From positions 19,436,382-19,500,381 of the forward strand of contig NC_052472.1 in NCBI RefSeq assembly GCF_009730915.1: 64,000 nucleotides of DNA, given 5' to 3'. The translations under genes were made by a program, and so were the position numbers. The notes under the pieces are model-generated. The model was not told the origin of the DNA and did not search any database. It saw only the letters and a program-made list of their open reading frames with translations. Origin of the DNA: Dioscorea cayenensis subsp. rotundata. Taxonomy: Eukaryota > Streptophyta > Magnoliopsida > Dioscoreales > Dioscoreaceae. Shown piece after piece: positions 13,101-44,776 of the stretch. Numbering within the stretch: position 1 is the stretch's first letter; each line of letters opens with the position of its first letter.

Positions 13101-15091
13101 ACTAAAAGGGGGAGGTGCGATCAATGGCAGTGGCATTCCAACACGTTGGGCATCCCTCCCATTAGTCCTCCCTCTTCCCCCTCTAGCAGGTCTGCCTCCT
13201 TTCTGCCCTTGTTGAGGAGTCCTACTGAAAGAACTTGACCCCTGGAAATTCCCAAATGAAGGCTGGAGACCACCACTAGAAGTCTGACCTGCCCCTGAAC
13301 GACCAGAGTTTATATCCCCTTTCTGCCCTCTCCCCTTGCCAGCTAGGGAGTTTTGATCCATAGATGAACCATCATCATGGTATCTTTCCTGCAAATCATC
13401 CCCATAACCATAAGCCATTTTACCCTTGTCCTCAGGAGGATTGCCCCATTCATCAGCACTAGGCCCAGTAGCAAAATCCTGTTGGGACAACCCCTCACTT
13501 CTCCTTCCAGGAAATGTGGAAACAGACTCCTCTTTTCCAAAGTCAAGATTTTTATTGGGTCTGATTTCAATAGAATCAGTGTACTCACTTCGCACACCAT
13601 CAGACCTCATTCTAGCATCTTTTCTATAACCAGGTCGACCATGAACCTTCTCCCTGTCTGTCCTATCTTGCTCACGCCTCTGTGAATCCCAATCTCTCAG
13701 ATGATCAACATCTTTCTCCCCATCTTTTAAATCATGCCTTGTCTGACTTCTCCTCCAGTAATCTCTAGAACCTTCACGCTCCCTGTTTTTATCATCCCAA
13801 CCACTGTCTTTTCCTTTGGAAGCTCTGTCATCTCTATAACCGTCTTCCCACTCTTTGTTTTTTACACTTACACCTCTTTCATTGTCAGACTCAGAAAATC
13901 CTCGATCCCGCTCATCAGACTCCCTTCGATGCTTTGAACTTCTCTCAGGAGTGTGTGATCTATCATGCTGTACATCCCTCCCGCTTCGGTCCCTCATCCG
14001 TGCATGTCCATCTTCATCCATATTGAACGACCTCTCACAGGTTTCAACCTCATCACGACTACCATATGCAGCGTCCCTGTCCTGTCTATGTTTCTCACCT
14101 TTGTCCCCATGTGGCTTTGTCACTATGCTGAATGGCATTAGGCTCCACAGGCTCAGTCAAACCTGGTGATCTCTCTCGAGCTGATTTCTGTTTATCATCT
14201 CTGGCAATGTCTGATCTGGTATAACGATAACTTGCACCTTGTTTATGGTCTTCATCTTGCACTTCTGATCTGCCCCGGTTTCGACTGCTTTCTCCATCTG
14301 CCCTTCTGTCATCCCTGTTAATGGATCTACCACCCTTTTCATAACTCAAGTCTACCCTACTTCTACTCTCTCCCAATTCATTTCTAGAATCCACGGTGCG
14401 ATCCCTGCTAGGCCCATGCCTATCATGCTCAGAAGCTTTTCCACCCCTTGGATCAGACTTGTCCCTGTAACTACTTTCTTCAGCTTTTCTACCAATCTCC
14501 ACCTCATCCCATCGCCTACGAGACGGATTTCTGTCCTGCTCCCGGTCTTCATGGCCTTTTGTCTCTTGAACTCTCCTTCCTATCTGAATACTTTGAGTCT
14601 CTATCCTGAATCTTCTCATGATCGATATCATGAGAGCTCTCTGGTCTGCTTCGAACCTTACTTTGTGAGCTCTCACTAGATTTCAATCTCTCTTTCCTTG
14701 AGGAGCTCCTCTCAATTTCATCATCTCTGCCCCTGCGGCTACCTTCTTGGTCTCTATCACGATAACTGTCACCTGATCTGCGCTCTCCCCTATCTTCTGT
14801 TTCCTTACTCAGTATCTTGGAGCGAGAATCCCTTCTGGCTTCATATTCATCCTCATCTGCACTGTCCACACGGTTTGAGCCACCTGACTTCTTCCGGGTA
14901 TCATTCCTTTCTCCAGAACTTTTTCTTCTTCCATTATCATAATCATCTACTTCCTCAGGATTGTCATACTTCCTTGTCTTAGCAGATCGATGCTTCCTCT
15001 TTTCCCAATCCTCATCTTCATCATTCCTTACATCCCTACTGTCCTCAAGACTACGTTTACTGCGACTCCGACTTGATTCTGAGGTTTCCAT
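10186..15091 (-). CDS. MTB: N6-adenosine methyltransferase non-catalytic subunit MTB (METTL14-like)
   Basis: MTB is the plant METTL14 homologue that pairs with MTA in the nuclear complex placing m6A on mRNA. Coding exons, set by GT-AG borders that keep phase: 15091-12360, 12260-12177, 11732-11628, 11524-11416, 10863-10712, 10621-10186. The N-terminal half is Arg/Asp/Glu/Ser-rich, followed by a Gly/Pro-rich stretch with RGG-like [11 protein letters not shown]. The MT-A70 core starts near [16 protein letters not shown] and has [52 protein letters not shown] and [14 protein letters not shown]. It ends with FDGYGFN and a short tail. Three +1 frame changes (near 14557-14560, 14116-14118 and 10334-10337) break the frame. 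Without them it would be about 1,204 aa, longer than Arabidopsis MTB. Each lies at a short homopolymer, so assembly error is as likely as a real lesion. Identity is very secure; integrity is not. Confidence 0.93.
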
Positions 15092-16096
15092 GGCACAACA
15101 AAACCTTGAATGGTAATTTAATACGTTTCCGAGCTTTTACTCCTTATACCAATTAGAGAAATCAAAGAATGTGAATTCCTCACTCCCCTGAAACAAGGAG
15201 AAGTGATGAGCTAAGTAACTACATATCAGATGCAAATTACCCTTCCCCATAAGTAGCAAAAATCAAGACACAAGATCAGGCAAAGAGAGATCCTATAATT
15301 CCGAAATTGCAAGTAAATATTATCAACACACAAAAGCCAAACCACAAAAAAGCAAATAATTCATACTCACAAACAGAAAAACTCAAAGAATGACGCATTC
15401 TAAGCTATCGTTGTAAGCAAACCCTAATAAAAAAAACAAAAGCAACAAAATTTACAAGCAGAATTAGAAAAAAGAAAAAAAAAAGGCACCAAAACTCAAT
15501 GAAAATTAGATATTCTCCAGAAGACGCACTAAAACAAACACAAAAACTTTACACGCCCAAGTTCAATCTAACCATGCAAAAATCCCAAACTCTTCAATCA
15601 CTGTCCAAAACCCTAGATTCCGCAAGCATGGGGCACCTAGTTCATCATTCAAATCAGGATCACTGAGACAACTACGAAATTCCGAAACTATAGTCCACAT
15701 CTCAAAGTTCAAAATCACAAAAGATAGAAAGAAATAGAAAGAAAGAGAAAGAAGGAGAGATGGGATCACCAGAAGACAAGTTCAGCTAGGGTTCCGCATC
15801 AAGCCAACACCATGGAGGGGAGACCCATCGGATGAATCAATGGATCGCTGAAGAAATCCACGTGAGGAGATTGAGGAGAGAATGGAAACCCTAGAAAGGG
15901 AGCCCTGGAGGAATCCCAAGACCAAGAGAGAGGGCTCCGAAGGGGCGGGGGAGGCTGGGGCTGGAGCCGGAGCGCGTTTCCAGACGTTTCCTTAGCATTT
16001 TACGATATTTGTTGCGGAAGCGGTGACTCATAATGGGTCGGGTCCACTTCGACCCGATCCGAAATCCTTAATTTGGATTTGGATCCGAATCTGTTA

Positions 16097-16145
<49 letters not shown>

Positions 16146-16240
16146 ATAAATAAATATAATACTGTAGTGAAATAAAATAACATATAATATAATATAATAT
16201 AATAATATAATAATAAAATTAAAAACAGCCACCGGATGTG
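15092..16240 (-). promoter_or_regulatory. MTB promoter and 5' leader with probable leader intron
   Basis: Directly upstream of the MTB start codon. On the minus strand a leader intron is plausible: donor GTGATCC at 15769 and acceptor TTGTTTCAG before 15187. The upstream leader exon (about 15770-15960) is GC-richer and contains AACCCTAG words common in plant 5' leaders. The whole block is repeated at 25480-26575 in duplication unit B, with the same intron borders preserved, which supports it as one promoter/leader unit. Confidence 0.6.
16093..16143. repeat. (TTA)n microsatellite
   Basis: About 16 uninterrupted TTA/ATT triplets. The unit B counterpart (26468-26482) has only about four, so the array has changed length since the duplication. 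Confidence 0.9.
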
Positions 16241-16534
16241 ATGGAATGTTATGAGAATCAGGGGATGTGATTTTTCTTCTCTCCGTAATTATATGTCAAG
16301 AAGATTTATTAATTCAATTTGATTTTTAAAATATTTTTTATATATACATGATAAGACTATAATCATCTATATGTTATTTGATCGAGTTAAAAATTTCTTG
16401 GAAGTAACTAATACATCATTGTACCTACTTGTCCTTTGACACTTCTAAGCATGTATATGGTAGGACTATAGCTGTTTATACTTGTATGTCCCTTAACATA
16501 TTTTTGTAGGGTGGCACTTATCCTTTTGTAAAAA

Positions 16535-16582
<48 letters not shown>

Positions 16583-16706
16583 TCCAGAAAATATTATTCT
16601 GATCCTATACTTTTATTTATTTCACATCGATAGTGATGTGATCAATAAATTATTTTAGTTTTTAACTCAATTAGAGCATTTTTAAAGAATCAAAATAAAT
16701 GTGTTG

Positions 16707-17952
16707 ATGTAGTCCACCTTTGTAGTCTATTGATTAAAATTAGCACACTCACCATTAGAGGGGGCACGGGCCATCATTTGGCCCGGCCCAGTAAACCTCG
16801 CCGGATCATTTGATCAGGAGAGCCGGGCCGCAATACCGTAACCGGCCGCACTATAGCGGGTCCCGACCTGTAACAAACAAATGTAATGCTCTAACCAACT
16901 CCACCAACATTTGTTGGTTGTTTATTAAATTATATATATATATATATATATAACATACTTATTTGTATTTTGTGCCTACAATAAAGAATAAACATACATT
17001 TAATACAAGTAAATACATATTGGACTTAACAAATTCTTAATTATTTTTATTAAAATATAAATTTATATAAATAATTAAAAGTGCGTTTTAGTATTATTTT
17101 TTTAAAAAAAAAAAGGCGACAAGTATCTTTTTTTATGGCTCGTGAATGTGGCCTGCAATATCACTCGTGAATTATTTCCTTCAACTAGGATTAGAACCCT
17201 CACCACTCCGCACATCACACAAAAAACTTATTTTTTTTCTTCATCAACAAACATAATGAGCATAAAAAAAATAATACTTTAGAATTCAAGACTAAAAGTA
17301 AAGCTTAGATACATCTAAATAGATATAAATAAATAAGTGGGTGATAACTTTAATAAAAAAATTAAAAAATTAATATTTATCACATAAAAAAAATTTATAT
17401 ATCGTTTAATCAAATAGATAAATGAATTTAGTGCAATGCTTTCTTTTTTCTAAAATTATTTTCAAATTTTTTAAGTTGTTTCAATTTTATCTAATTCATT
17501 AGAATTAATTTTTTTTATTTTTAAAAATTATTAAAAAGAAACTTAATATGAAATATAGTTTTATATTTTTTTAACATTGAGCATAAAAATTGTGGAGAAG
17601 ATGGCTACCTTTTGGAAATGACCCCGGTTCGATTCTCACCAAATTTGTTTTTGCGTTTTTAATATGATAATAGTTTAATATAACATATAAAAAAATAAAA
17701 AACTGCCTGGCCTAGCGGGTTGGGCCCGAACCCGACAAGTTTGAGTAACTGTCTGGCCTAGTCCGGGTCTCTTTCGGTAGACCCATGACCCGCCGGGTCA
17801 ACCCGGCTCGGCGGGTTAATCCTGTTGTACGGGTTTGTTATGAGCCAGTCAAAAATTGACCCGGACCCACCGGGCCTGATTAACCGGCCCGTGCCCACCT
17901 CTAATGTAATCCACCTTTGTAGTCTATTGATTGAAATTAGCACACTCACCAT
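16707..17952. repeat. 49-bp direct repeats flanking the hAT-like element
   Basis: The 49 bp at 16707-16755 and at 17904-17952 (beginning ATGTARTCCACCTTTGTAG and ending CACACTCACCAT) match at 47 of 49 positions. They abut the two ends of the inverted-repeat element exactly. This is far longer than the 8-bp TSD of hAT elements. Confidence 0.88.
16756..17903. mobile_element. Non-autonomous hAT-like DNA transposon
   Basis: A 1,148-bp element with TIRs: left TAGAGGGGGCACGGGCC, right end inverted TAGAGGTGGGCACGGGCC. TAG(A/G)G-type ends with GGGCACGGGCC are characteristic of plant hAT MITEs. Subterminal sequence is rich in GGCCCGG/CCGGGCC. No transposase is encoded. A tRNA-like word GGTTCGATTC near 17630 may be a captured fragment. 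It is unusual in lying between 49-bp direct repeats instead of an 8-bp TSD. Confidence 0.72.
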
Positions 17953-18968
17953 AATCAAAATAATTTTTTTGATTCCAAAACAAAAAATTAAGGTATAATT
18001 CATTGGATATTCACCTTAAAAATAACTCAATTTTAATTTATCCTTTTTTTTAGTTTCCTAATTCTTAATCATCAGATACTTTTATGTCATCAAGAAACAA
18101 GCCTAACCCTTGTTTTCCTCTGACAACTATTTAATAATTCTTAAACACATATTTTATTGGATTCATAGACATGACTAATAATTTTACAACAACCACAAAG
18201 GACTTGTTAGAAAAATTCTGACCCTTTACGTGACTCCTTGTACTTTATCTAAAGAAACCAATGGTTATACGAGTAGTTGTTTTGTAGCCGAGTCTCCATT
18301 AAAACTCTTCATAAGTGGTGAGCGTTCAAATTATCGGTGAAAACATATTTTTGAGAGAGTGAACAATGACTGTGTCCAGATGGTCCTCAACGCCCACATC
18401 TACACGGGCCATACTCAAAATTTGTGCAACCCCTACCTTTCTTAGCGACATAGCCACTCATCTTGGGGAAAAAAATCAATGGCTCAATGTCCAATATATA
18501 TATATATAATCTTAGAACAGTTAATTAATAATTAACTTATTAATATATAAGCCAGATTTCTCTTCATAATAGATTAAGCTTTTAAATTAGATTAAGCCCA
18601 TGTGTTCTTCTTAGCATCTTAACAAGCAGAACTCCAGTAACATCTCCCCACCAACATTAGATGTTACATAATACATATGTCAGCACTCATGCTTGGCCAA
18701 ATAAGGCAAGTTCCATTCATCATAGAAGTCTTACAGTAAGATTTATGCTTCAATCCAAATCTGGTTATTCATTCAACATGGTTGACAATTACAGAAAAGT
18801 GATTTAAGGATTGAATAAAAACTGGAGTAACAAAGTATTCAATGTTTGAATTGTGAATCTTAATCATGAGATTGTGTTTACTGCAAATAAACCAGTGAAT
18901 ACTGTGCAAAAAAAGGGAGGAAAAAGAAGATCAGGGCGACATTTATGTGCCGAATTGAGACCAGAGAA
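17953..18968. other. Spacer downstream of HAD copy A
   Basis: Part of this should be the 3' untranslated and downstream sequence of HAD copy A. It belongs to the roughly 2.7-kb block absent from unit B. No other gene is seen. Confidence 0.5.
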
Positions 18969-21900
18969 CTATGCCAGTTTACTGCTGAAGTCAGGCAGAT
19001 CCAGCATTCGAATCCTCGAAATGCTCTCAGCCTCCTCTCTTTCTTTCTGTGTGTTGTACCCCCATCTTCCTGTTAAATCAAATTTACTTCAGAAACAAAT
19101 TCTTGAAAAGAATAAGCAATCATGGAAATATTTTTAGAAGAGAGAAGACAACGATACCGAGGTACAAATTCCATGCATCCAGAGCAGGCTCTTTGATAAC
19201 ATTCTTCAATGTAGCTAGTCGATCTTCTACAAAGCTAAGAAACAGCAGGCACAAGAAATTGGAATTTGATGGAAGTTTATCAAGTACATAATTTCGTAGA
19301 AAATATATTATTGAAGGCCACATGGATTGTGGTAGATAATGAAAATGCTCAGTTGTTTTAGTTCTTTATCATGATTTGCATGCATGAAATGTTAGTTCTC
19401 ATGGATGGCTGATGGTTTCTTAGAACTCGTAAACATTAGATGGCCGCTGAAAAGTAGAGAATTTTACTGTTCTGTTGTATTGCCTTAAGATGACTTTTAT
19501 CTTTAGGAAGTTCCATGGAAATTCAATGCTCACATTGTCACTATGTCAAACAGATAACAGAACATATAGATCTGAAAGGAGAAACACTGATGCAAGTAAC
19601 AAATAGGTGATACCTAAACATGGATTAACTGCAGAACCTAAGTAGAATATTGTAAAAACTTCTATTAACTGGCTTGAGTCTCAATCAATCTGCTGAGGTT
19701 TTGGGTAAGAATCAATATGATATCTTTAGAAATTGCTCAATTAATCTGTTATACTTTCAGCAAGAATTGATCTGCTATCTTTACTCTTTGTCTAAAAAAT
19801 AGATTGTTGTTAGCCTCTATAGGCCATTGAACTTGATCAATTAACAAAAGAGAAAACAAAGAGGAATCAGATGTTGACAACTATATTGTACGTTTAGTTG
19901 CTTCAAAAACCATACTCAATGACTGAAAATGAAAAAAAAAAACATACTATAAAAGAAAGAGAAGAACTAAATAAAATATTTCCTGTGAAGACTGAAGTTA
20001 ACCCCATATTTACGACAAGAGCTTACTGAAGTGTTAAACCCTCGTTTTCAGGTTTTGTTTGGAGCTGCTTCAGCACTTCCACCTTTGGTCTGATAAAAAC
20101 AAATAAAGATTATGGTCAAAAGAATAATTTATGTAAAGATTACGGTCAAAAGAAAAATACATATTAATATTTCAGAAAGAAAAAGCATGCAGTTACAATG
20201 CACTAACCCAGTCCCTAAACCATATATCCTGTCAGTTGGGATGACTATCCCAGCCAATTCTCTCAGCAATGCATCTGCAAAACGGCTCTAGCAGACGAAA
20301 CAAGAGCTAATATGTAAAACAGTTGGTGAAATGGATCGAAGCTTAACATAGCCATGGCAGATTATCTAAGTTGACATATTCAAAAAAAAAAGGCAAGAGA
20401 AATCGCATTATCGGCAATTAAAATGTATATTTCCAGATAAATCCAGGCAAAACACCAAAAAGAAAGACCATCATACTTTTACCCGATATGTATTACATGA
20501 TCAGCTGTATTTTTCATGCAGAGTAGTTACTTCTAATTATTTTTATATTTGATGTATCATTGTCTTCGTGTCCCTAGAAAGGAATGCATGATTTAGAAGC
20601 TTGGTCAATCATTCTTTCAGCAGAAATTTTGCACAAGGGTCTGCACCTGTTTTGTTGTAACAATGTACACTTGTGAACTTGAAAATCTCAAGGCATCTGC
20701 TACTCCTGGGTAAAATCTGCAGGTCAAATGGAGCATTTAGATACAAACAAAACCTGACACTGCTCTATTTATAATTCACAGATAAACTTTCACACCCCAT
20801 AAGAGTTTATAATGCATGAATAAAAATGTTCAATTAGTAAAAGGCTATGGTAAATTTGTGTCTTATGAGTAAGAACATATGCAGTGTACCCAATAAGCAG
20901 GGAGTTTAACAATGCAATCACGCATGCATTTGCACCACCACCCTGAAAAATCATTACCCCTGAAATGGTAGAAGCTGATGATATAGGAACTTCCATAAAG
21001 CTTAGTCACTTGCCAACACAACAGCTTCGTTTAGTGTTTCAAGCACATGATCAAAATGCATATGCTAATCTCATCTTCTGTCAGAGCATACTACTCATAA
21101 GAGCAAAACAACAAAGAAAAAGAATTGACATATGACAGATGGTGCCAAAGAAATCTAATATCTATAAATGGATAGGTAGATAAATTAACTGAAAGGCACT
21201 CAATTTCACAGTACCTGTTAGCACTAATCCAACCTGATAAATCATTTTGAATCCCATTCATCTCTGACTTTCCCAAAAAGATCAATCAGAGGTTCTCTAT
21301 GTTCATTCCATTCCTTCATAATTATGGATTTAAGCTCCGCCCAATTCTCCAATATTCCTTCAATAGAAAGGCCATCTGCAACCTTGCAGTCATGAAATGG
21401 AAATATCGAGTGACAATGTTCAAATTCCTTGATAAATGATCATATGTCACTGCTACCAATATCGCACTAACAATTATGCAAATGAAAAGTTGCAGGAAAA
21501 AGAACAATTTGGTTATTTACCGAGGATTTTTTTGAATAGATGGTACTCGAAGTTCCACTAGCAGCCTAACCAGCAATAAATTCTCATATCCTGTTTCGAC
21601 CACTGGACGAAGCTGCAGCAATGAAAACACCATCACTTTTTAGTGTTATAACTAGCTAAAATCATTCGTTGTGAAACCTCCCAAGTTTCTTTCTTTTTTT
21701 TACTTCGGCGTGCAACTAGATAGTTTTGTGCTTATGAGGTAAAATGAATTAACTTCAAAAATAAAAAAATGTCCTGCTCAAGAATAAACATGATCTACAT
21801 GATGAAGAATGGTAGAGCGCTGGATCATGGAAAGAGAGTAGAAAATCTCTTCATTCCAAATAGAAATTTGGGGAAATTTGGATAAAACTATAGATACATT

Positions 21901-23139
21901 AAGATTTTAGGGATTTCTAAATTTATATGGTTTATTAGAGATGGAGCCTGATCAACAAATAGAAATGAGAAGAACAATATACAAGGATATATAGCCTAGG
22001 AAAAGAGCATTACTCTAACACAGTAGTAAAGTAATAACATACAAAACAGTATTCTAGCCCAAATTAGAAGCATAAACCAAAAAAATTTTAATCACCCATT
22101 TCCAAATAAAGGAAGTCTATATGCTGGTAGGTTCTTCGGAATCACAGCTCGAAAACTAGTATTTGTACCAACTTTCTCATAAAAGAGTTGGCCAGACAAT
22201 ACAGAAAATGAAAGTTAGAGGTTCAGGATTAAAGGTGCATCAATGCCAAAAAAGAGTGGTTCGTCTACATTACTCAAATAACATAAAAAAAATAATAAAA
22301 AAAATTCTATTGATCTTGCTAAAGAGATTCTTCTCATGTTCAAATAGAAGAAAGTTTGGCATGATGTTATCATGAGGGCTGATTGCTATGACAGAAAAAA
22401 AGATAAAAAACATTGGAGACGAATGGAATTAATATTCAACAGAGGGTTAAACTTCGGTTTCCAAGAGAGTTCATATTTCTATTTGTTTACATTATAGCTG
22501 AGAATCAAAACACTAACAGAAAAGAAAAATTTTGAAATTTATATTACAAAATTATGCAATTTACTTAAAAACAAAAGAGTTAAAAGAAACCTCACAAACC
22601 CTACTTCAAAAAGCTGCTTATTAGCATAAGCACCACATCAATCTCAAGTTATGAACTTTAATGAAGAGTCATACATCCAAACTCATGCACAAACCTACAA
22701 ATCTATTTTATCACACATTGGTGCACGACCTCCATAATTAACTAAAAGCAAAGGAAAAAATGCCAAGATTGACAAACAAATCATCAAAATTAAAATTTCT
22801 CAATGCAAAACATAATCAAAAGAGTGAAAGCAGAGATTTTGGGTACTAACAACGTGCATCTGGTCAATGATCCAGTCCTCCATGCCTGAATCAACTTGGT
22901 CAAAGAGCCACGGCCATCTAATTTTAGCAGCCTGCAAAGACAGAAACAAATTACAAACCTAGCAACCAAATTCCATCTAATCAAATGAATCAAAACATCA
23001 AACAATCAAAAAGAACAAGAAACAAATGAATCACCGATGAAGTTGAGCATATACATACTTTGAGAGCTGAGAGGGAGCTCTCTCCGCAGCTATCGCATAG
23101 CACTCCGTCGAAATCCAGCGCGTATAAATGGCCTCCCAT
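18969..23139 (-). pseudogene. HAD-like hydrolase gene, copy A (two frame breaks)
   Basis: Nine exons with GT-AG borders: 23139-23059, 22931-22851, 21612-21521, 21382-21215, 20716-20647, 20287-20208, 20089-20027, 19234-19158, 19069-18969. The product would be a plant HAD-superfamily protein of about 269 aa starting MGGHLYALDFDGVLCDS. HAD motif I is DFDGV (Asp9, Asp11), motif II is VYIVTTKQ, motif III is the Lys in GPKVEVLKQL and motif IV is FVEDR. No transit peptide is obvious and the substrate is unknown. Relative to copy B, exon 3 has two extra T (21527-21533) and exon 4 one extra C (21253-21255), so translation would stop shortly after exon 3. Either the gene is dead or these are homopolymer errors. 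It lies upstream of MTB on the same strand. Confidence 0.85.
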
Positions 23140-24599
23140 CTCTCTCCCTCCCTCCCTCCCTCCCTCTGTCTCTCTCTCTCTGCGCTCGCTTTGTGAGGAG
23201 GAAGTGTGCGGAGGGGTTCGTTTTATCGAGGGAAAGTATGTGGAAGGTAAATTATGATTTAGGATTCTGTCATGATCACAAATGTTTGGATTTTATAATG
23301 TTATGGCCAAAAAAAAAATTTTAATATAAAAATCACTTAATTTTTCTCTGATTGTGCATAAAACCAATAATTTCCGGTGCCATACCAACACCATATCAAC
23401 ACCACTTTGTCAGCACCACTTCTAAACCACATCAACACACTCACCATAAACAACTTTAAAAAAAACCATTATAGCCTCACGTGTAACCGAAGAAAAGTTA
23501 AATAGTTTTTGGGTTACAAAAAAAAAGTTTTATGGTCACAGCGTTATAAAGTACAAACATTTATAGTAGTGAGTGAAATGACCCCTAAATTAGGGCCAAC
23601 ACCCACAAAACTTTTGGAATTATAATACTATGACATATATAATAATAATTTAAAAAAAAACTTGTTTCCTTAACTCAAAACCTATAAAACTTTATTTTGA
23701 ATACAAGTAAAGCCAAAATGAACTATTTATGATGAACAAGCACATATAGCACTCCCAACGGTAAATGAGCTCATGTGTTTGAGATAAATAAAATGGTATA
23801 AATTACACCCATAGCCACAAAAAGTTCTAGATTTATAACAATATGACCAAAAATATATTTTTTTTCTAACACAAGACCTATAGGTCACTGGTGCAATATT
23901 TGTAAAAATAATAATTTGATTCAGCATACACGATAGCGCCACAAGTACTCACTCATTGGAAATAAACCCATTTGTGCTTACATGCTCTCAGAGTGAAGTT
24001 TTATCGGTTTTGTATTTGAAAAAAATAATTTTTTTGGCCATAGTGTTATCAACCCAGGACTGTCCCTGAGCATAGGTGACCAAGGCCTATACCCCCATAA
24101 TTTTCTAGGTCCCCATAATTCATATATTTTTTTTAAAAAAAAAGTTATATTTAACCAAGGCCTATACCACCATAATTTTCTAGGTCCCCATAATTCATAT
24201 ATTTTTTTAAAAAAATATATATATTTAACATTTTTATTCAGTATTATCCTATCCATATAATTATCATCTTGAAGATTCTAACTCTTTTTTCAACTATAAA
24301 ATGTGTAGCAAATTTGGCCTTATAATAGGACCCCCGCAATTTTCCAAGGCCTTGCAATTCATTTTTTTAAAAAAAATTATATTTTAAATTTTTATTTACT
24401 AAAGGTGTCGACATCATCAAGAGTATAGCGAACCCAAACAAAGGATTCCAGAAGAAGACGAAAGTTATGAGGCTAATGCAGCAAAGTAAGAGATGACTAG
24501 CGTTTTTAAGAGGAGATATCTTTATCTTTCTCGGAATATCCCTCTTTTTACCCGAAAGTAGCGGGATTTCTAATAGGAACAAGCAATTAAAGGATTAGT
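23140..24599. other. HAD copy A promoter side and repeat-rich spacer
   Basis: Next to the start codon is a CT-rich leader (TCCCTCCC and TCTC runs, 23141-23182) that would be the 5' untranslated region. Further out is AT-rich DNA matching unit B and a 75-bp tandem duplication (24080-24229). No gene is supported. Confidence 0.55.
24080..24229. repeat. 75-bp tandem duplication private to unit A
   Basis: 24080-24154 and 24155-24229 both begin CCAAGGCCTATACC and contain ATAATTTTCTAGGTCCCC. Unit B (33385-33470) has a single copy, so the duplication arose in unit A after the segmental duplication, or one copy was lost from B. Confidence 0.85.
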
Positions 24600-25337
24600 T
24601 AGCACCACCTCAGATCCAAAAGGAAAGGAAGGAGAATAAGGGAAGGTGCCAAGCCTGATTGCAGCACGAGTAAGGGATTAAGCTGATTGCCCATTGGTTA
24701 AAGCCATTGGTCTCACTTCAACCCACTTGATGAAGTAGTCTGTAGCAGTGATAATAAAATAGTGACCATGACTAGAGGAAGAATTGGACAGTCAAAACCG
24801 GGTGTGAAAGAAAGACGTTGAAGGAGCATGGATGAAATCTCCATGTAAAATCCCTTCCTGCCACCTGAGCCCTCCTAAAAATACATGGGTGAAGAAAGGG
24901 AGGAAGAAAGAGGCTGGTGATAGAAAGCAAAAAGAGAAGCCACCGGCTAAAGACAACCACTTTTTTATACTCGAAAAAATACTGCTCAGTCTGTCCACCC
25001 CTACCCTTGTTCATGCAACCTCTGTGGTACCCAATCCCATGGAAGTCAGAGAAATCCTCGGAGCATCGAGAAGTTTTTTAGGAAAATCAGATGCTTTATG
25101 AGTTACGAACGTCTTCTTCACTATTTTCATCAGCGTCTTGTTTATAGCCTCTGTTTGACCATTGTAACATCACTGAGCCACACCCAGAAATACCAACTAA
25201 TAAAGCCCTGAAACAGTTACCAGTTCCAAAGAGGCTAGGTGATAGGATTGGAGGCCTATACCAAATAGAGCTGAATTTCTTCAGCATTACATCATAATCA
25301 TCCTCCTTCATTCTACAGTGTCTTTCACTCTGAAGTG
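24600..25337 (-). pseudogene. Scrambled gypsy integrase remnant, copy A
   Basis: Minus-strand translation contains HGDFIHAPST (near 24825) and ATDYFIKWVE (near 24740), typical of Ty3/gypsy integrase (zinc-binding region and core). NGQTEAINKTLMKI, normally downstream of these, lies upstream at about 25100-25160. The block order is therefore permuted relative to a standard integrase, with stops and frame changes throughout. It recurs in unit B. Confidence 0.65.
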
Positions 25338-25341
25338 CTAG

Positions 25342-25420
25342 CAGGTTGGATTAGTGCTAGCAGGTACTGTGAATTGAGTGCCTTTCAGTTAATTTATCAA
25401 CCTATCCATTTATAGATATT
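25342..25420 (-). other. Inverted HAD exon 4/intron 4 fragment at the duplication junction
   Basis: About 79 bp, from CAGGTTGGATTAGTGCT to TTTATAGATATT, is the reverse complement of the exon 4/intron 4 border of the HAD gene (copy A near 21161-21236, copy B near 28877-28947). It sits between the end of unit A and the start of unit B and carries the exon's splice donor as CAGGTACTG. It looks like templated filler DNA at a rearrangement breakpoint. Confidence 0.85.
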
Positions 25421-25437
25421 TTGATTCAATTTACTTA

Positions 25438-26575
25438 ACTACGTTTACTGCGACTCTGACTTGATTCTGAGGTTTCCATGGCACAACAAAACCTTGAATG
25501 GTAATTTAATAGGTTTCCGAGCTTTTACTCATTATACCAATTAGAGAAATCAAAGAATGTGAATTCCTCACTCCCCTGAAACAAGGAGAAGTGATGAGCT
25601 AAGTAACTACATGTCAGATGCAAATTACCCTTCCCTCCAAGTAGCAAAAATCAAGACACAAGACCAAACAAAGAGAAATCCTATAATTCCGAAATTCCAA
25701 GTAAATATTATCAACACACAAAAGCCAAACCACAAAAAAGCAAATAATTCATACTCACAAACAGAAAAACTCATAGAATGACGCATTCTAAGCTATTGTT
25801 CTAAGCAAACCCTAATAAAAAAACAAAAGCAACAAAATTTACAAGCAGAAATAGAAAAAACGCACCAAAACTCAATGAAAATTAGATATTCTCCAGAAGA
25901 CGCACTAAAACAAACACAAAAACTTTACACGCCCAAGTTCAATCTAACCATGAATAAATCCCAAACTCTTCAATCACTGTCCAAAACCCTAGATTCCGCA
26001 AGCATGGGGCACCTAGTTCACCATTCAAATCAAGATCACTGAGACACAACTACGAAATTCCGAAACTATAGTCCACATCTCAAAGTTCAAAATCACAAAA
26101 GATAGAAAGAAAAAGAAAGAGGGAGAGATGGGATCACCAGAAGACAAGTTCAGCTAGGGTTCCGCATCAAGCCAACACCATGGAGGGGAGACCCATCGGA
26201 TGAATCAATGGATCGCTGAAGAAATCCGCGTGAGGAGATTGAGGAGAGAATGGAAACCCTAGAGAGGGAGCCCCGGAGGAATCCCAAGACCAAGAGAGAC
26301 GGGCTCCGAAGGGGCGGGGGAGGCTGGGGCTGGAGCCGGAGCGCGTTTCCAGACGTTTCCTTAGCATTTTACGATATTTGTTTCGGAAGCGGTGACTCAT
26401 AACGGGTCGGGTCCACTTCGACCCGATCCGAAATCCTTAATTTGGATTTGGATCCGAATCTGGTATTTTTTTTATTATTATTAAATAAATATAATACTGT
26501 AGTGGAATAAAAAAATATATAATTATAATATAATATAATAATAAAATTAGAAACAACCACGGGTGTGGTGGAATG
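25438..26575 (-). pseudogene. Orphan MTB promoter, leader and first 14 codons (unit B)
   Basis: Near-identical copy of 15050-16240. Start codon at 25479, 14 codons retained (METSESSQSRSKRS), then the frame runs into the junction filler. The leader-intron borders and GC-rich leader are conserved. If transcribed from the minus strand, RNA would read from an MTB promoter into unit A gypsy remnants. No MTB body follows. Confidence 0.88.
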
Positions 26576-26667
26576 TAATGAAAAAAGTAAATGGACAGAC
26601 TTAGAATTGAATCTCTGGGGTTAATACTACTACTGTATTAATCTCAGTTTACTATCTCAGTTTTGAG
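26576..26667. other. Short filler replacing about 2.7 kb in unit B
   Basis: About 90 bp unrelated to unit A joins the MTB promoter block to the HAD 3' end. ATCTCAGTTTACT occurs here and again inside HAD exon 9 (26691-26703), where copy A reads ATGCCAGTTTACT. This suggests local copying during the deletion event. Confidence 0.6.
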
Positions 26668-26688
26668 TGCCGAATTGAGACCAGAGAA

Positions 26689-29600
26689 CTATCTCAGTTT
26701 ACTGCTGAAGTCAGGCAGGTCCAGCATTCGAATCCTCGAAATGCTCTCTGCCTCCTCTCTTTCTTTCTGTGTGTTGTATCCCCATCTTCCTGTTAAATCA
26801 AATTTACTTCAGAAACAAATTCTTGGAAGGAATAAATAATCATGTAAATAATTTTAGAAGAGAGAAGAAAACAATACCGAGGTACAAATTCCATGCATCC
26901 AGAGCAGGCTCTTTGATAACATTCTTCAATGTAGCTAGTCGATCTTCCACAAAGCTAAGAAATAGCAGGCACAAGAAATTGGAATTTGATGGAAGTTTAT
27001 CAAGTACATAATTTTGTAGAAAATATATTATTGAAGGTCACATGGATTGTGGTAGATAATGAAAATGCTCGGTTGTTTTAGTTCATTATCATGATTTACA
27101 TGCATGAAATGTTAGTTCTCATGGATGGTTGATGGTTGATGGTTTCTTAGAACTCGTAAACATTAAATGGCCGCTAAGTAGAGAATTTTACGGTTGACTT
27201 TTAGTTATCTTCGGAAGTTCCATGGAAATTCAATGCTCACATTGTCACTATGTCAAACAGATAACAGAACATATAGATCTGAAAGGAGAAACACTGATGC
27301 AAGTAACAAATAGGTGATACCTAAACATGGATTAACTGCAGAAGCTAAGTAGAATATTGTAAAACTTCTATTAACTGGCTTGAGTCTCAATCAATCTGCT
27401 GAGGTTTTGGGTAAGAATCAATATGATATCTTTAGAAATTGCTCAATTAATCTGTTATACTTTCAGCAAGAATTGATCTGCTATCTTTACTCTTTGTCTA
27501 AAAAATAGATTGTTGTTAGCCTCTATAAGCCATTGAACTTGATCAATTAACAAAAGAGAAAGCAAAGAGGAATCAGATGTTGACAACTATATTGTACGTT
27601 TAGTTGCTTCAGAAACCATGCTCAATGACTGAAAATGAAAAAAAAAACATACTATAAAAGAAAGAGAAGAACTAAATAAAATATTTCATGTGAAGACTGA
27701 AGTTAACCCCATATTTACGACAAGAGCTTACTGAAGTGTTAAACCCTCGTTTTCAGGTTTTGTTTGGAGCTGCTTCAGCACTTCCACCTTTGGTCTGATA
27801 AAAACAAATAAAGATTATGGTCAAAAGAATAATATATGTAAAGATTACGGTTAAAAGAATAATACATATTAATATTTCAGAAAGAAAAAGCATGCAGTTA
27901 CATTCCACTAACCCAGTCCCTAAACCATATATCCCTGTCAGTTGGGATGACTATCCCTGCCAATTCTCTCAGCAATGCATCTGCAAAACGGCTCTAGCAG
28001 ACGAAACAAGAGCCAATATGTAAAACAGTTGGTGAAATGGATCGAAGCTTAACATAGCCATGGCAGATTATCTAAGTTGACATATTCATAAAAAATAAAG
28101 GCAAGAGTAATCGCATTATCGGCAATTAAAATGTATATTTCCAGATAAATCCAGGCAAAACACCAAAAAGAAAAACCATCATTCTTTTACCCGATATGTA
28201 TTGATCAGCTGTATTTTTCATGCAGAGTAGTTACTTCTAATTATTTTTATATTTGATGTATCATTGTCTTCATGTCACTAGATAGGAATGCATGATTTAG
28301 AAGCTTGGTCAATCATTCTTTCAGCAGAAATTTTGCACAAGGGTCTGCACCTGTTTTGTTGTAACAATGTACACTTGTGAACTTGAAAATCTCAAGGCAT
28401 CTGCTACTCCTGGGTAAAATCTGCAGGTCAAATGGAGCATTTAGATACAAACAAAACCTAACACTGCTATATTTATAATTCACAGATAAACTTTCACACC
28501 ACATAGGAGTTTATAATGCATGAATAAAAATGTTCAATTAGTAAAAGGCTATGGTAAATTTGTGTCTTATGAGTTATGAGGCAAGAACATATGCAGTGTA
28601 CCCAAAAAGCAGGAAGTTTAACAATGCAATCACGCATGCATTTGCACCACCACCCTGAAAAATCATTACCCCTGAAATGGTAGAAGCTGATGATATAGTA
28701 ACTTCCATAAAGCTTAGTCACTTGCCAACACAACAGCTTCGTTTAGTGTTTCAAGCACATGATCATAATGCATTTGCTAATCTCATCTTCTGTCAGAGCA
28801 TACTACTCATAAGAGCAAAACAACAAAGAAAAAGAATTGACATATGACAGATGGTGCCAAAGAAATCTAATATCTATAAATGGATAGGTAGATAAATTAA
28901 CCAAAAGGCACTCAATTCACAGTACCTGTTAGCACTAATCCAACCTGATAAATCATTTTGAATCCATTCATCTCTGACTTTCCCAAAAAGATCAATCAGA
29001 GGTTCTCTATGTTCATTCCATTCCTTCATAATTATGGATTTAAGCTCCGCCCAATTCTCCAATATTCTTTCAATAGAAAGGCCATCTGCAACCTTGCAGT
29101 CATGAAATGGAAATATCGAGTGACAATGTTCAAATTCCTTGATAAATGATCATATGTCACTGCTACCAATATCGCACTAACAATTATGCAAATGAAAAGT
29201 TGCAGGAAAAAGAACAATTTGGTTATTTACCGAGGATTTTTGAATAGATGGTACTCGAAGTTCCACTAGCAGCCTAACCAGCAATAAATTCTCATATCCT
29301 GTTTCGACCACTGGACGAAGCTGCAGCAATGAAAACACCATCACTTTTAGTGTTATAACTAGCTAAAATCATTCGTTGTGAAACCTCCCAAGTTTCTTTC
29401 TTTTTTTTACTTCGGCGTTCAACTAGATAGTTTTGTGCTTATGAGGTAAAATGAATTAACTTCAAAAATAAAAAATGTCCTGCTCAAGAATAAACATGAT
29501 CTACATGATGAAGAATGGTAGAGCGCTGGATCATGGAAAGAGAGTAGAAAATCTCCTCATTCCAAATAGAAATTTGGGGAAATTTGGATAAAACTATAGA

Positions 29601-30845
29601 TACATTAAGATTTTAGGGATTTCTAAATATATATGGTTTATTAGAGATGGAGCCTGATCAACAAATAGAAATGAGAAGAACAATATACAAGGATATATGG
29701 CCTAGAAAAGAGCATTACTCTAACACAGTAGTAAGTAATAACATACAAAACAGTATTCTAGCCCAAATTAGAAGCATAAACCAAAAATTTTTTAATCACC
29801 CATTTCCAAATAAAGGAAGTGTATATGCTGGTAGATTCTTCGGAATCACAGCTCGAAAACTAGTATTTATACCAATTTTCTCATAAAAGAGTTGGCCAGA
29901 CAATACAAAAAGTGAAAGTGAGAGGTTCAGGATTCAAGATGCATCAATGCCACAAAAGAGTGGTTCGTCTACATTACTCAAATAACATAAAAAAAATAAT
30001 AATAAAAACTTCTATTGATCTTGCTAAAGAGATCCTTCTCATGTTCAAATAAAAGAAAGTTTGGCATGATGTTATCATGAGGGCTGATTGCTATGACAAA
30101 AAAAAAGATAAAAAACATTGGAGACGAATGGAATTAATATTCAACAGAGGGTTAAACTTCGGTTTCCAAGAGAGTTCATATTTCTATTTGTTTACATTAT
30201 AGCTAAGAATCAAAACACTAACAGAAAAGAAAAAATTTGAAATTTATATTACAAAAATTATGCAATTTACTCAAAAACAAAAGAGTTAAATGAAACCTCA
30301 AGAACCCCACTTCGAAAAGCTGCTCATTAGCATAAGCACCACATCAATCTCAAGTTATAAACTTTAATGAAGAATTATACACCCAAACTCATGCACAAAC
30401 CTACAAATCTATTTTATCACACATTGGTGAACAACCTCCATAATTAACTAAAAGCAAAGGAAAAAATGCCAAGATTGACAAACAAATCATCAAAATTAAA
30501 ATTTCTCAATGCAAAACATAATCGAAAGAGTGAAAGCAGAGATTTTGGGTACTAACAACGTGCATCTGGTCAATGATCCAGTCCTCCATGCCTGAATCAA
30601 CTTGGTCAAAGAGCCACGGCCATCTAATTTTAGCAGCCTGCAAAGACAGAAACAAATTACAAACCTAGCAACCAAAGTCCATCTAATCAAATGAATCAAA
30701 ACATCAAACAATCAAAAAGAACAAGAAACAAATGAATCACCGATGAAGTTGAGCATATACATACTTTGAGAGCTGAGAGGGAGCTCTCTCCGCAGCTATC
30801 GCATAGCACTCCGTCGAAATCCAGCGCGTATAAATGGCCTCCCAT
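26689..30845 (-). CDS. HAD-like hydrolase gene, copy B (one frame break)
   Basis: Nine exons matching copy A: 30845-30765, 30637-30557, 29320-29231, 29092-28926, 28420-28351, 27993-27913, 27794-27732, 26954-26878, 26789-26689. Exons 3 and 4 are in frame here (90 and 167 bp; SIQKSS, then VADGLSIE). Motifs are as in copy A: DFDGVLCDS, VYIVTTKQ, GPKVEVLKQL, FVEDRLATLKNV. Exon 6 has one extra C (27933-27935) relative to copy A, which breaks the frame after roughly 165 residues. Without it the protein is 269 aa. The last codons differ (KLR against KLA in A), because the end of exon 9 was altered together with the adjacent deletion. Biochemical role unknown. The CT-rich leader upstream is shared with copy A. 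Confidence 0.85.
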
Positions 30846-31158
30846 CTCCTTCTCTCTCTCTCCCTCTCCCTCCCTCCCTCTGTCTCTCTGTCCCTCTCTG
30901 TGCTCGCTCTATGAAGAGGAAGTGTGCGGAGGGGCTCGCTTTATCGAGAGAAAGTATGTGGAAGGTAAATTACGAGGTTCAATCGGGCCACAAATGTTTG
31001 GATTTTGTAAACTGTGGCCAAAAAGCCAAAAAAATTAATATGTTAACTTTCTCCGATTACAAATAAAAATACTTATTTTAAGACGATTTTTTGCGCCATA
31101 TCAGCCCACGTCAACACTACTTTATCAGCATCACTTCAGAGCCACATCAACACACTAA
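30846..31158. other. HAD copy B 5' leader and upstream sequence
   Basis: CT-rich leader (30846-30900), then AT-rich DNA aligning to unit A 23140-23443. It ends at the TAA target of the PIF-type element. No gene. Confidence 0.6.
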
Positions 31159-32400
31159 GGGCGTGTTTGGTTCATGGTAGTGAGCCCAGAAGTGATGGAA
31201 GTGGCTCACTTCTGAACACTTCCATGAGTTTGGTTCATGGTAGTGAGATTAGAAGTGGGAAGTCACACTTCTAAAAAAGGTTACTTCCGGGTTTTGACTT
31301 CGGAGAAAAAATCTCAGAAGTCCAACTTCCGTGATATTTTTAAATTTTTTTAAATATTTATTAAAATGACACCGAACTCCCACTTCCGTAATATACGTCA
31401 TTGCGATAACCCTAAAAACCCTAATTGCGTCGTTGTCTCCTGATTGCTGTCTTTTTCTTCCCATCTTTTCATGGTTTCTCAAAGGTTAGATCTACTTTTA
31501 AACCACCATTAAAGTCTTCTTTTTCTGTATTTGAGCTCCTGAAAGAGTTAAAAAAATTTCTTTCTTGTTTATCAGGTTTTGACTGAATTTTTCATCCGGC
31601 GGTGGAGTGCAGTTAGCTCAACCTTCTCTTCGTAGGTGAGTTTTTTCCCAAATCTAAAAACCCATAGCCAAAAGTGTTATTTTCATTTTTTCCCCTTTAA
31701 TTCCTTGAATTTTTTTTTTAAATTTCTGTTTCTCTAATAAGAAAATACTTTATCTACATTTTTTTATATTTAATTTGTATATTGTTGAGATATTGATATG
31801 GTTTTGTTTTACTAATTTTAACTCAAATCCGTAATTTTTTTAAAAAAATTTAGATCATGTACATATTTCATATTTTATGAGGGTTTTTATGATTATTTTT
31901 TAATTATATGGATATTTCATTTGTCTGAATATATCTCATCAAATCTTATTAGATCTAAAAGTTTGTGATGATTCTGTGTTCATATTGTTGATTTTTTTAA
32001 AAATAATGTTATTGGATATGATAATGATTGTTAGGATGCTTAGATATTTCATTTGTAATTGTCTGAATAGATTTCATTAAACTTTAAGTTATATCTTGTG
32101 TTGTGATGATTTGGTATATTAAAATTGATGTTGATGATGCTTTTATATATATATTTTTTAAAACAATACTGTTAGAAGTTTTTCAGTCATATAAATGGAG
32201 ATTATCATGTATGTTCAAAGTGAGAGTTCCAAGCTTTCACTTCTATAAACCAAACATGAAAAGTGGGATAGAAGCGCATGAACTTTAGTGAGCAACCAAA
32301 CAGCAGGAAGTGACACTTCCATATAGAAGTAGGACTTCTACAGAAGTGGGAGCTCCTTACTTTCTCACTTCCATCCCACTTCTATAAACCAAACATCCCC
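31159..32400. mobile_element. PIF/Harbinger-type non-autonomous element, TSD TAA, unit B only
   Basis: 1,242 bp with TIRs (left GGGCGTGTTTGGTTCATGG, right end inverted GGGGATGTTTGGTTTATAG) and TAA on both sides (31156-31158, 32401-32403). A 3-bp TWA TSD with GGG..TGTTTGG ends is typical of PIF/Harbinger and Tourist-like elements. Unit A has the unoccupied site near 23440-23447 (CACACTCACCATAAACAAC). No transposase frame is seen. The interior holds AACCCTAATTG and splice-like CTTCGTAGGTGAG words. Confidence 0.88.
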
Positions 32401-32447
32401 TAACCGTAAATAACCTTAAAATAGACTATTATAGTCTCACGTGCAAC

Positions 32448-32822
32448 TAGGGATGATAAGGGGGCGGGGCGGGGCGGAGGTGGGGGCAAGGCACGCCTCT
32501 ACCATCCTCGCCCCGCCCCATCCCTTTTTTTTTCATAAACCGCCCACGTCGTCTGTCCTGCCCCGCTCATAGTTACAAATAAGTAACTAAAATTCTTAAA
32601 AACATTTTTAAAATAGTTTTTTTTTATAAAACATATACTTATAAAAACAAACTCATAAGAAATTTAAAAAAAAAATCATTTACCCCTACACTATATAATA
32701 TTTATAACAAGTTAAATTAATAGCGGGGTGAGGCGAGGCATGGAAAAACCAAACCCGCCCTACCCCGCCCAAAGCTGCCCCGTTCGGGGAGGATCGGGTC
32801 GGTTTGGATTTTGCCATCCCTA
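32448..32822. mobile_element. hAT MITE, TSD CGTGCAAC, unit B only
   Basis: 375 bp with ends TAGGGATGATAAGG and, inverted from the right, TAGGGATGGCAAAATCC. The perfect 8-bp TSD CGTGCAAC lies at 32440-32447 and 32823-32830, the hallmark of hAT insertion. Unit A has the empty site CTCACGTGTAACCG near 23478-23490. The interior is unusually rich in GGGGCGGGGC/GCCCCGCCCC near both ends. Confidence 0.93.
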
Positions 32823-32830
32823 CGTGCAAC

Positions 32831-33829
32831 CGAAAAAAAGTTAAATAGCATTTGTGTTATAAAAAAAGTGTTATGATCATAATGTTATAACAATGAGTGA
32901 AATGACCCCTAAATTAGGGCCAATGCCCACAAAACTTTTGGAATTATAATACTATGATAAAAAAATAAAAAAAAAACTTTTTTCATCAACTCAAAACCTA
33001 TAAAACTTTATTTTGAATACAAGTAAAGCCAAAATGAATTGTTTATGATGAACAAGCACATATAGCACTCATGACGGTAAATGAGCTCATGTGTTTGAAA
33101 TAAATAAAATGGTATAAATTACAATATCCACAAAAGTTTTAGATTTATAACATTATGACTAAAAAAATATTTTTTCTAACACAAACCCTATAGGTCACAT
33201 GTGCAATATTTGTAAAAATAATAATTTGATTCGGCATACACGATAGCGCCACAAGTACTCACTCATTGGGGAAAAACCCATTTGTGCTTTACATGCTCTT
33301 AGAGTGAAGTTTTATTGGTTTTGTATTTGAAAAAAAATATTTTTTTTGGTCATAGTGTTATCAACCTAGGACTCTCCCTAAGCATAGCCGACTAAGGCCT
33401 ACACCCCCATAATTTCTAGGGCCTCATAATTCATATTTTTTTTAAAAAAATTATATTTAACATTTTTATTTAGTATTATGCTATCCATATAATTATCATC
33501 TTGAAGATTTTAACTATTTTTTCAACTATAAAATGTGTAGCAAATTTGGCCTTATAATAGGACCCCGCAAATTTCCAGGGCCTTACAATTCATTTTTTTA
33601 AATATATTTAAAAATTTTTATTTACTAAAGATGTTGGCATCATTGAGAGCATAGTAAACCCAAACAAAGAATTCCAAAAGAAGACGAAAGTTATGAGGCT
33701 AATGCAGCAAAGTAAGAGGTGACTAGCGCTTTTAAGAGGAGATTTCTTTATCTTTCTCGGAATATCCCTCTTTCGTACCCAAGAGTAGCGGGATTTCTAA
33801 TAGGAGCAAGCAATTCAAGGATTAGTTAG
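32831..33829. other. Unit B spacer, no gene
   Basis: AT-rich sequence aligning to unit A 23490-24600. It includes the single-copy version of the 75-bp motif that is duplicated in unit A. Confidence 0.6.
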
Positions 33830-34562
33830 CACTACCTCAGATCCAAAAGGAAAGGAAGGAGAATAAGGGAAGGTGCTAAGCCTAATTGTAGCATGAGTAA
33901 GGGATTAAGTTGATTGCCCATTGGTTAAAGCCATTGGTCTCGCTTCAACCCACTTGGTGAAGTAGTCTATAACAGTGATAACAAAATAATGACTATGAGC
34001 AGAGGAAGAATTAGATGGTCGAAACCGGGTGTGAAAGAAAGACGTTGAAGGGGCATGGATGAAATCTCCATGTAAAATCCCTTCCTGCCACCTAAGCCCC
34101 TATAAATACATGGGTGAAGAAAGGGAGGAAGAAAAAGGTTGGTGATAGAAAGCAAAAAGAGAAGCCACCGGTTGAAGACACAACCACTTTTTTATACTCG
34201 AAAAATATTGCTCAGTCTGCCCAACCCTGCCCTTATTCATGCAACCTCTATGGTACCCAGTCCCTTGGAAGTTCGAGAAACCCTCAGAGCATTGAGAAGT
34301 TTTTTGGGAAAATCAGACGCTTTATGAGTTTTGAACATCTTCTTCACTATTTTCATCAATGTCTTCTTTGTAGCCTTTGCTTGACCATTGTAACATCACT
34401 GAGCTACACCTAGAAATACCAACTAATAAAGCCCCGAAATAGTTACCAGTTCTAGAGATGATAGGTGATAGGATTGGAGGCCTATACCAAATAGAGCTGA
34501 ATTTCTTCAGCATTACATGATAATCATCCTTCTTCACTTTCCAGTGTCTTTCACTCTTAAGT
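33830..34562 (-). pseudogene. Scrambled gypsy integrase remnant, copy B
   Basis: Aligned to 24600-25337, with the same permuted order of integrase-like blocks and the same kind of stops. It was already decayed before the segmental duplication. Confidence 0.62.
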
Positions 34563-34639
34563 GCCCGAACACTCAGCCTAGTGGGCGAGCATGACGGACT
34601 CTGTATTTGTGCACCTGCTGACACCTTTCAAAGCACTTT

Positions 34640-36130: not shown

Positions 36131-36760
36131 ACTAAAAAAGGGGCCACCAACTAATTTTAACTTTAATTCCATCCTATAATTCTATCCATATAATAATTTT
36201 AAAAATTTCAACTATTTTTTTTTTAACTATAACACTTAATTTATTATGATATCAATGCACAACAAATTATCTTGAGAAATTTATTTTTTTTTAAAACTAT
36301 AAAACTTATAATAGGGTCCCGCAAATTTCTAGGACCTTACAATTCATGTTTTTTTTAAATTATATTTAAGCTTTTTATTTACTATCATATGATCCTATCC
36401 ACATGATTATAATTTTAAAAATTTGTAATTGTTTTTTAAACTCTAAAATTTACCTTATTTAATTTGTTTATTTGATTTATGATAATATTTTTTTTATTTT
36501 TCTTATATAATTTATTATTTGATAAAAAATAATTTAAAAATATTTAATATAAATTTTTCCTATGGCCTCATTTTCTCTAAGACCGGCCTATATAAATTCA
36601 AAACTTATGTACCCATACGTGTAATTTACCAATGTGGAGAGATACAAGCCTTGGCTTCCTCCGCCTCTCCACCAATCACATTTGTGACACGAGTATATAA
36701 ATTGGTAGGTAAATTACTAATTACATACTTTATAATGGTGAAAAAATAGAGGCAAGTCAC
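36131..36760. repeat. Dispersed AT-rich repeat related to both duplication units
   Basis: Words such as TAGG(G)TCCCGCAAATTTC followed by CCTTACAATTCAT and (TTTTAAA)n, and ATCC(A/T)...TATAATTAT, recur here (near 36160-36230 and 36310-36420). They also occur in unit A (24240-24400) and unit B (33470-33640). A decayed transposon family is likely. No coding sequence. Confidence 0.5.
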
Positions 36761-44730: not shown

Positions 44731-44776
44731 TAAGTAGTACAGTATAGGAGAATAACTTCGTGTAGGTTTGGTTACT

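Follow-up and report, generated by a model that had tools for sequence, protein, structure and literature searches.

A 64,000-nucleotide stretch of the yam genome (Dioscorea cayenensis subsp. rotundata, contig NC_052472.1; hereafter the window, in whose positions all coordinates are given) carries a tandem segmental duplication of about 10 kb, which sequence comparison strongly supports as a real and young feature of that genome. The duplicated segment combines a HAD-like gene with sequence from the promoter side of MTB, the gene for a METTL14-type subunit of the m6A writer. Its two direct copies, unit A (15050-25338, plus strand) and unit B (25438-34564, plus strand), are separated by a short seam that consists largely of an inverted copy of a piece of the HAD gene. 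The duplication probably arose through error-prone break repair with template switching, followed by independent decay of the two copies.

Self-BLAST of the window, which returned 22 non-self alignments (11 of them of at least 150 bp), resolves A and B into four collinear blocks in the same orientation, with identities of 86.6-94.7%. These blocks pair 15050-16257 with 25438-26584, 18947-23441 with 26667-31156, 23479-24155 with 32822-33461, and 24154-25338 with 33391-34564. The longest spans 4,541 columns at 94.7% identity, far above chance, and 7,319 sites in total are aligned between the units. The left flank, containing MTB, continues into A only, and the right flank continues from B only; the left end of B lies inside MTB exon 1 sequence, while its right end runs into flank absent from A. 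The copies are adjacent, collinear and similarly oriented, each flank being continuous with one copy only, which is the arrangement that defines a tandem duplication. No second MTB body was found among window self-matches of at least 150 bp, and the 64 kb contain no Ns. A preliminary description of this DNA had proposed a tandem segmental duplication of roughly 10 kb with shared gene order and had placed its units at 15050-25337 and 25438-34562. The self-comparison that it recommended recovers direct, collinear copies with a common gene order and places the boundaries within two bases of those proposed.

The 99 bp between A and B comprise 82 bp of templated filler (25339-25420, minus strand) and a remaining 17 bp (25421-25437), located between the templated piece and unit B, for which the window offered no credible source. 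As established by BLAST against the window and by three-way alignment, the 82-bp piece is an inverted copy of HAD-like gene sequence spanning the border between exon 4 and intron 4. It matches the end of exon 4 and the start of intron 4 at 95.2% identity in copy A (21157-21239, minus strand; E = 6e-33) and at 93.9% in copy B (28869-28950, minus strand; E = 8e-32). The insertion at the joint is recognizably templated by nearby DNA, as is characteristic of templated-insertion joints. This HAD-derived filler is an addition to the preliminary description, which left the 99 bp undiscussed. Over the 82 compared columns, the filler carries three private substitutions (one at its extreme edge), B carries two and A none, in addition to one indel column. 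By our own arithmetic, about 1.3 private substitutions per lineage are expected at an A/B divergence (K) of 0.033. The counts lie near this expectation, suggesting that filler, A and B split at about one time; the seam therefore appears similar in age to A and B, as an assembler join would not.

Short repeats at the seam may offer a further clue to how it was made. The 11-mer GTGCTAGCAGG is present there in two copies spaced 19 bp apart and is absent from the rest of the window. The form from which it probably derives, GTGCTAACAGG, is found at two places on the minus strand and can be recognized in both HAD copies. The doubled GTGCTAGCAGG would fit a sequence of events in which an end would prime copying, slip back on a short match, copy again and finally be joined.

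In the proposed mechanism, a chromosome break would have been repaired by end joining or replication restart in a manner that duplicated the segment. Before sealing, a 3' end would briefly have used the HAD gene, which lies about 4 kb away, as a template in inverted orientation; the copying end would then have been released, re-annealed at short matches and joined into MTB exon 1. Afterwards, B would have lost (probably) a 2.7-kb segment with the 3' flank of HAD and acquired two transposon-like insertions, its copy of the MTB promoter would have been left orphaned, and the number of 75-bp repeats would have changed at a later time. The HAD coding sequence would have been kept under purifying selection, possibly with gene conversion between the copies, and the repeat-rich third of the unit would have diverged quickly, probably via cytosine methylation.

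Both polymerase-theta-type end joining and microhomology-mediated template switching would be expected to leave such a footprint at the seam; the footprint is equally compatible with the two and does not separate them. In Arabidopsis, fillers are characteristic of joining mediated by polymerase theta and arise by rounds of microhomology-primed extension and release (PMC10923293). The yam seam resembles the Arabidopsis junctions in that its filler derives from nearby DNA and unrelated ends are joined, and short matches may lie at its putative hops. It differs from them in that the filler is 82 bp long, inverted, drawn from about 4 kb away and situated where the two copies of a 10-kb duplication meet. 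The Arabidopsis junctions come from CRISPR breaks or T-DNA borders (PMC10923293), whereas the yam seam is known from a genome assembly. Tandem gene duplicates in Dioscorea gene families are similar to the present case in the local duplication of one gene; the papers listed on them are for the most part surveys of gene families or genomes. Microhomology-mediated break-induced replication produces direct duplications whose seam contains a short templated piece in inverted orientation; the yam seam differs in showing a single switch with a clear source and no triplication.

Several observations weigh against break repair with template switching, or against its details. A filler of 82 bp whose template lies about 4 kb away may be longer than is usual for theta-mediated joining, and this length and distance make replication-based switching as possible as theta joining. 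Searches of the window for a source of the 17-bp filler, allowing up to three mismatches and by BLAST, yielded nothing credible: the 18-mer at 25421-25438 has three matches in the window, itself included, at up to three mismatches, compared with a mean of 0.55 in shuffled sequence, in which 3 of 100 shuffles reach three. Only five substitutions make up the star-like pattern, and one of these is the change at the extreme end of the filler. In addition, the A-to-G change common to both copies of GTGCTAGCAGG needs an extra step without a unique reconstruction, and the seam is known from one assembly alone.

Other origins of the duplication make different predictions for the flanks and the seam. 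One alternative is that A and B are uncollapsed haplotypes, the assembler having placed the alleles of a single locus one after the other. An intron divergence of about 3% would be possible between haplotypes of an outcrossing plant, and the window does show signs of consensus error in the three frame switches of MTB. However, an allele would not start at MTB codon 14 with a second, truncated MTB start, and its junction would not run through an inverted HAD piece bearing three private substitutions. The truncation of B in MTB exon 1, the templated filler and the one-sided flanks of a window free of Ns, contiguous on the left only with A and on the right only with B, leave this explanation disfavoured and very unlikely. 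Tandem direct duplications are most often explained by non-allelic homologous recombination (PMC3744419), here between older repeats at the ends of the unit, and the right end of the unit lies near repeat DNA related to 36305-36449. Yet no homology is seen at the seam between the end within MTB exon 1 and the right end, which resembles a repeat, and the 99-bp filler intervenes. The unit ends show no mutual BLAST match and no common repeat by eye, which counts against homologous recombination and renders this route highly improbable. The repeat in question, at 24174-24401 in the right third of A, has 73-80% identity to 36305-36449, which lies about 2 kb past the end of B; the right breakpoint thus fell near a repeat cluster.

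Movement of the unit by alternative transposition or transposon capture is scarcely credible. Transposon-like elements are present in A (16756-17903) and in B (31159-32400 and 32448-32822), and reversed-ends Ac transposition yields tandem direct duplications in maize (PMC3744419). The maize and yam rearrangements are both plant tandem direct duplications, but the yam breakpoints lack recognized transposon ends: no terminus was identified at 15050, 25338, 25438 or 34564 by eye, without a terminus database. Furthermore, the elements in B are flanked by duplications and the corresponding sites in A are empty, so that they are later arrivals.

Under break repair with template switching, the structural differences between the units would belong to the independent decay of the copies. 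The discrete differences listed in the preliminary description (a deletion and two insertions in B, and microsatellite and 75-bp copy changes in A) are all present. A 2.7-kb segment that includes the native HAD 3' flank is found in A only (16258-18946), its position in B being occupied by 82 bases (26585-26666). Similarity between A and B ends 22 bp past the HAD stop codon, and B is without the native 3' flank. Within the B scar, ATCTCAGTTT is present at both 26641 and 26654 and matches sequence around the HAD stop codon at 26691. These short local repeats suggest a second repair of similar style, so that loss of the segment from B is favoured over gain in A, though not proven. The first B-only insertion (31159-32400) has a TAA or CTAA target-site duplication and an empty site in A near 23441; other 3-bp matches also arise by chance in a scan of its flanks. 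Its termini, judging from their type and the length of the duplication, are presumably PIF/Harbinger-like. The second (32448-32822) has an 8-9 bp target-site duplication (CGTGCAAC) and an empty site in A near 23478, and on the same grounds we take its termini to be hAT-like. In both cases the inserted sequence resembles a DNA transposon flanked by a target-site duplication. By self-comparison, a 75-bp tandem repeat (24079-24229) has two copies in A and one in B, and a TTA microsatellite is longer in A (34 bp).

The transposon-like element in A (16756-17903) has similar inverted termini, TAGAGGGGGCACGGGCC and TAGAGGTGGGCACGGGCC, and is abutted by a 49-bp direct repeat (16707-16755 and 17904-17952) of 95.9% identity with two mismatches. 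Owing to these mismatches, a scan for exact flanking duplications of at least 5 bp around the element found none. The length of this repeat far exceeds that of the usual hAT-type target duplication.

The nine-exon HAD-like gene is recognizable in both units, copy A at 18969-23139 and copy B at 26689-30845, both on the minus strand. The exon model is our own and was verified against P0003, a Dioscorea sansibarensis protein, by tblastn. Borders and splice dinucleotides of all nine exons agree in A and B, as would follow from the shared exon borders described earlier. The exons had also been described as alignable base by base with only scattered differences; they can be aligned, but frameshifts separate the copies, exon 3 of A having +2 and exon 4 of A +1 compared with B, and exon 6 of B having +1 compared with A. 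The joined reading of 269 aa is 97% identical to P0003 and has full-length matches to plant homologues. A protein search returned 1267 proteins at E <= 1e-3, and 10 of the 120 listed carry PF00702, whereas no family reached 0.001 in a Pfam search of the joined reading itself. The stretch YALDFDGV is presumably the N-terminal DxD motif. Two double-length Glycine soja proteins outscore P0003 in bits, at 63-64% identity. P0001 (Glycine soja, 466 aa) contains two HAD copies in one predicted protein, reflecting either a merged gene model or a separate tandem duplication of the same gene; among the matches listed, P0002 and P0005 resemble it by name and length.

Comparison of the two readings bears on both the age of the duplication and the selection acting on its gene. 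With gap columns dropped, A and B differ only at residue 93, where A, B and P0003 are all different, and at residue 269, where B agrees with P0003; at all other sites, A and B have every difference from P0003 in common. Because these differences are shared, the duplication is probably younger than the split from D. sansibarensis, unless gene conversion removed older differences. Between the copies, again with gap columns dropped, synonymous divergence (dS) is 0.028, nonsynonymous divergence (dN) is 0.0048 and their ratio (w) is 0.17 (binomial p = 0.016). Substitutions affect 8 of 810 exonic sites and 95 of 3410 non-exonic sites (2.8%; p = 0.002), the two counts coming from separate tallies that leave 54 splice-flanking sites in neither. 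The pattern indicates that both HAD copies have been constrained by purifying selection for much of their history.

This constraint must be considered together with the frameshifts. Each of the six at the locus is a net gain of one or two bases and lies in or next to a homopolymer run; three are in HAD, seen between the copies, and three in MTB, inferred from the tblastn frame map against P0121 near 14558, 14116 and 10334-10362. Consensus error is probably the more likely cause. The alternative, which is compatible with template-switching break repair, is that both HAD copies are true pseudogenes, broken at different sites after the duplication (+2 and +1 in A, +1 in B). In keeping with unguarded frames, indels of 1-2 bp are no rarer in exons (3 of 810 sites) than in non-exonic sequence (12 of 3410; p = 1.0), a 6-bp indel at 23139, the start of exon 1, being counted as 5' leader rather than exonic. 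Moreover, the TIR-NB frame at 51397-54273 (958 codons) is unbroken relative to P0241, so that any error would have to be patchy. Against this stand the constraint on substitutions, the occurrence of three similar frame switches in MTB, a gene essential in Arabidopsis whose protein is 95% conserved, and the fact that all six events are gains of one or two bases at homopolymers, which suggests consensus error. Pseudogenization of both copies is accordingly a serious possibility, if a rather doubtful one. The homopolymer frame switches in MTB, likely consensus errors, are in themselves of concern to users of the assembly.

Divergence between the units is highly uneven. Kimura two-parameter (K2P) distances are 0.033 on the promoter side, 0.025 over the HAD block (18947-23258), and 0.086 and 0.087 in the right blocks, the latter value referring to 24154-25338; a distance of 0.21 was obtained over 160 aligned sites of 23259-23441, where the alignment is doubtful. 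A single molecular clock for the whole unit is rejected by this range of block distances, from 0.025 to 0.087. Even within HAD, non-exonic differences are clustered, with a variance/mean ratio of 2.5 over 200-site bins. A low-divergence tract (20903-21977, minus strand) has 8 differences in 800 non-exonic sites, or about 1%, where 22 are expected. Uniform differences across HAD are rejected for this 800-site window, which was chosen by hand (p = 0.005 in 10,000 shuffles); the longest A/B identical run in HAD is not significant (p = 0.07). Either gene conversion or local constraint would account for the tract.

At the other extreme, the repeat-rich right third of A (23259-25338) is strongly diverged from B and shows an excess of CG and CHG transitions, with rates of 0.30 and 0.27, respectively, in 24154-25338 compared with 0.076 and 0.031 in HAD. 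Transversions are also increased, 1.9-fold in 24154-25338 and 3.6-fold in 23479-24078. Methylation-driven decay may explain most, but not all, of the divergence in this third. Decayed gypsy remnants had been reported in the duplicated units. Pfam searches lend them no support in the form of an integrase, reverse transcriptase or gag match: five of five right-third fragments had no family at E <= 10, and one of four in another set had an irrelevant match at E = 0.11. A short integrase-like motif is seen by eye only, and Ty3/gypsy identity of the right third is not supported by the profile searches.

The genic sites nonetheless give a rough age, as the suggestion that the duplication could be dated had anticipated in part. 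Outside the low-divergence tract, non-exonic HAD sites differ at 87 of 2610 positions (about 0.033), in agreement with the MTB-promoter side. In Dioscorea, the median Ks is 0.389 to D. zingiberensis, with divergences of about 60 million years (My), and 0.064 between D. alata and D. rotundata (PMC9010478). Calibrated at 0.389 per ~60 My, a K of about 0.033 corresponds to about 5 My and the coding dS of 0.028 to about 4.3 My, and the divergence of the duplication amounts to roughly one-half of the Ks between D. alata and D. rotundata. Genic sites thus suggest an age of roughly 4-5 My. With divergence ranging from about 1% to 8.7% and an excess of CG and CHG changes, one date for the whole unit would be misleading; the divergence check recommended earlier, applied here to the aligned units, gives a measurable but strongly block-dependent result. 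The filler at the seam, with substitutions of its own, can serve as a third copy for dating the duplication.

The MTB coding region (10189-15091, minus strand) has six modelled exons, supported by protein match, the tblastn frame map and a PF05063 MT-A70 domain in the largest MTB open frame. Its joined reading is 95% identical to P0121 (D. sansibarensis). MTB is essential in Arabidopsis. In A, the MTB 5' flank or promoter side (15092-16257) adjoins the MTB start. In B, an orphan copy of it (25480-26584) is attached to a 5' coding fragment of 14 codons (42 bases; 25438-25479, minus strand), read by hand as METSESSQSRSKRS and followed immediately by a stop codon. That the duplication carries the MTB promoter is correct for roughly 1.1 kb of upstream sequence, but the copy in B is severed from MTB coding sequence after 14 codons. 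The stop codon directly after codon 14 also excludes a chimeric gene driven from the MTB promoter through the seam. The K2P distance of 0.033 for the promoter-side block (15050-16257) approximates the intron rate, and no conservation of the orphan copy was detected in A/B divergence. No special link of the event to RNA modification was found besides adjacency and the orphaned promoter.

The remainder of the window holds several unrelated features. A single-frame TIR-NB-ARC gene at 51397-54273 (958 codons) encodes a product 89% identical to P0241; the D. cayenensis subsp. rotundata protein among the best 120 of 472 matches has only 62% identity to the product of this gene. The genes for P0003, P0121 and P0241 probably lie together in the genome of the relative too. 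An open frame at 39864-41792 has three stretches of the FAR1 DNA-binding domain (PF03101), with internal repeats about 70% identical in DNA. The interval 43787-47504 is probably a 3.7-kb copia-like element, in which direct repeats (43787-44258 and 47045-47504; 82.7%) surround open frames judged copia-like by eye. Pieces of a dispersed repeat at 3403-4638 and 58441-59673 are in direct orientation, 55 kb apart and 83-85% identical. At Rfam gathering thresholds, one tRNA is found in the window (55666-55749) and no RNA family match within either unit.

The event itself is clear but of an ordinary kind, a known class of duplication with a legible repair seam. Among the papers listed in literature searches restricted to open-licence PMC papers, none described the locus or its seam. 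The locus illustrates how homopolymer frameshifts in an assembly may mimic pseudogenes. It also shows uneven decay within one 10-kb duplication, in which constrained exons, a possible conversion tract and fast-mutating repeats occur together, and is thus a worked example against dating such a unit by one divergence figure. Beyond this, it is conceivable, though improbable, that HAD copy A has captured the orphan MTB promoter together with its 5' leader and 14-codon upstream frame, which lie about 2.3 kb upstream of it in the same orientation, and that copy B, without its native 3' flank, keeps the old promoter. If so, copy A would have an MTB-like expression pattern, and the two HAD copies would divide their labour by promoter capture.

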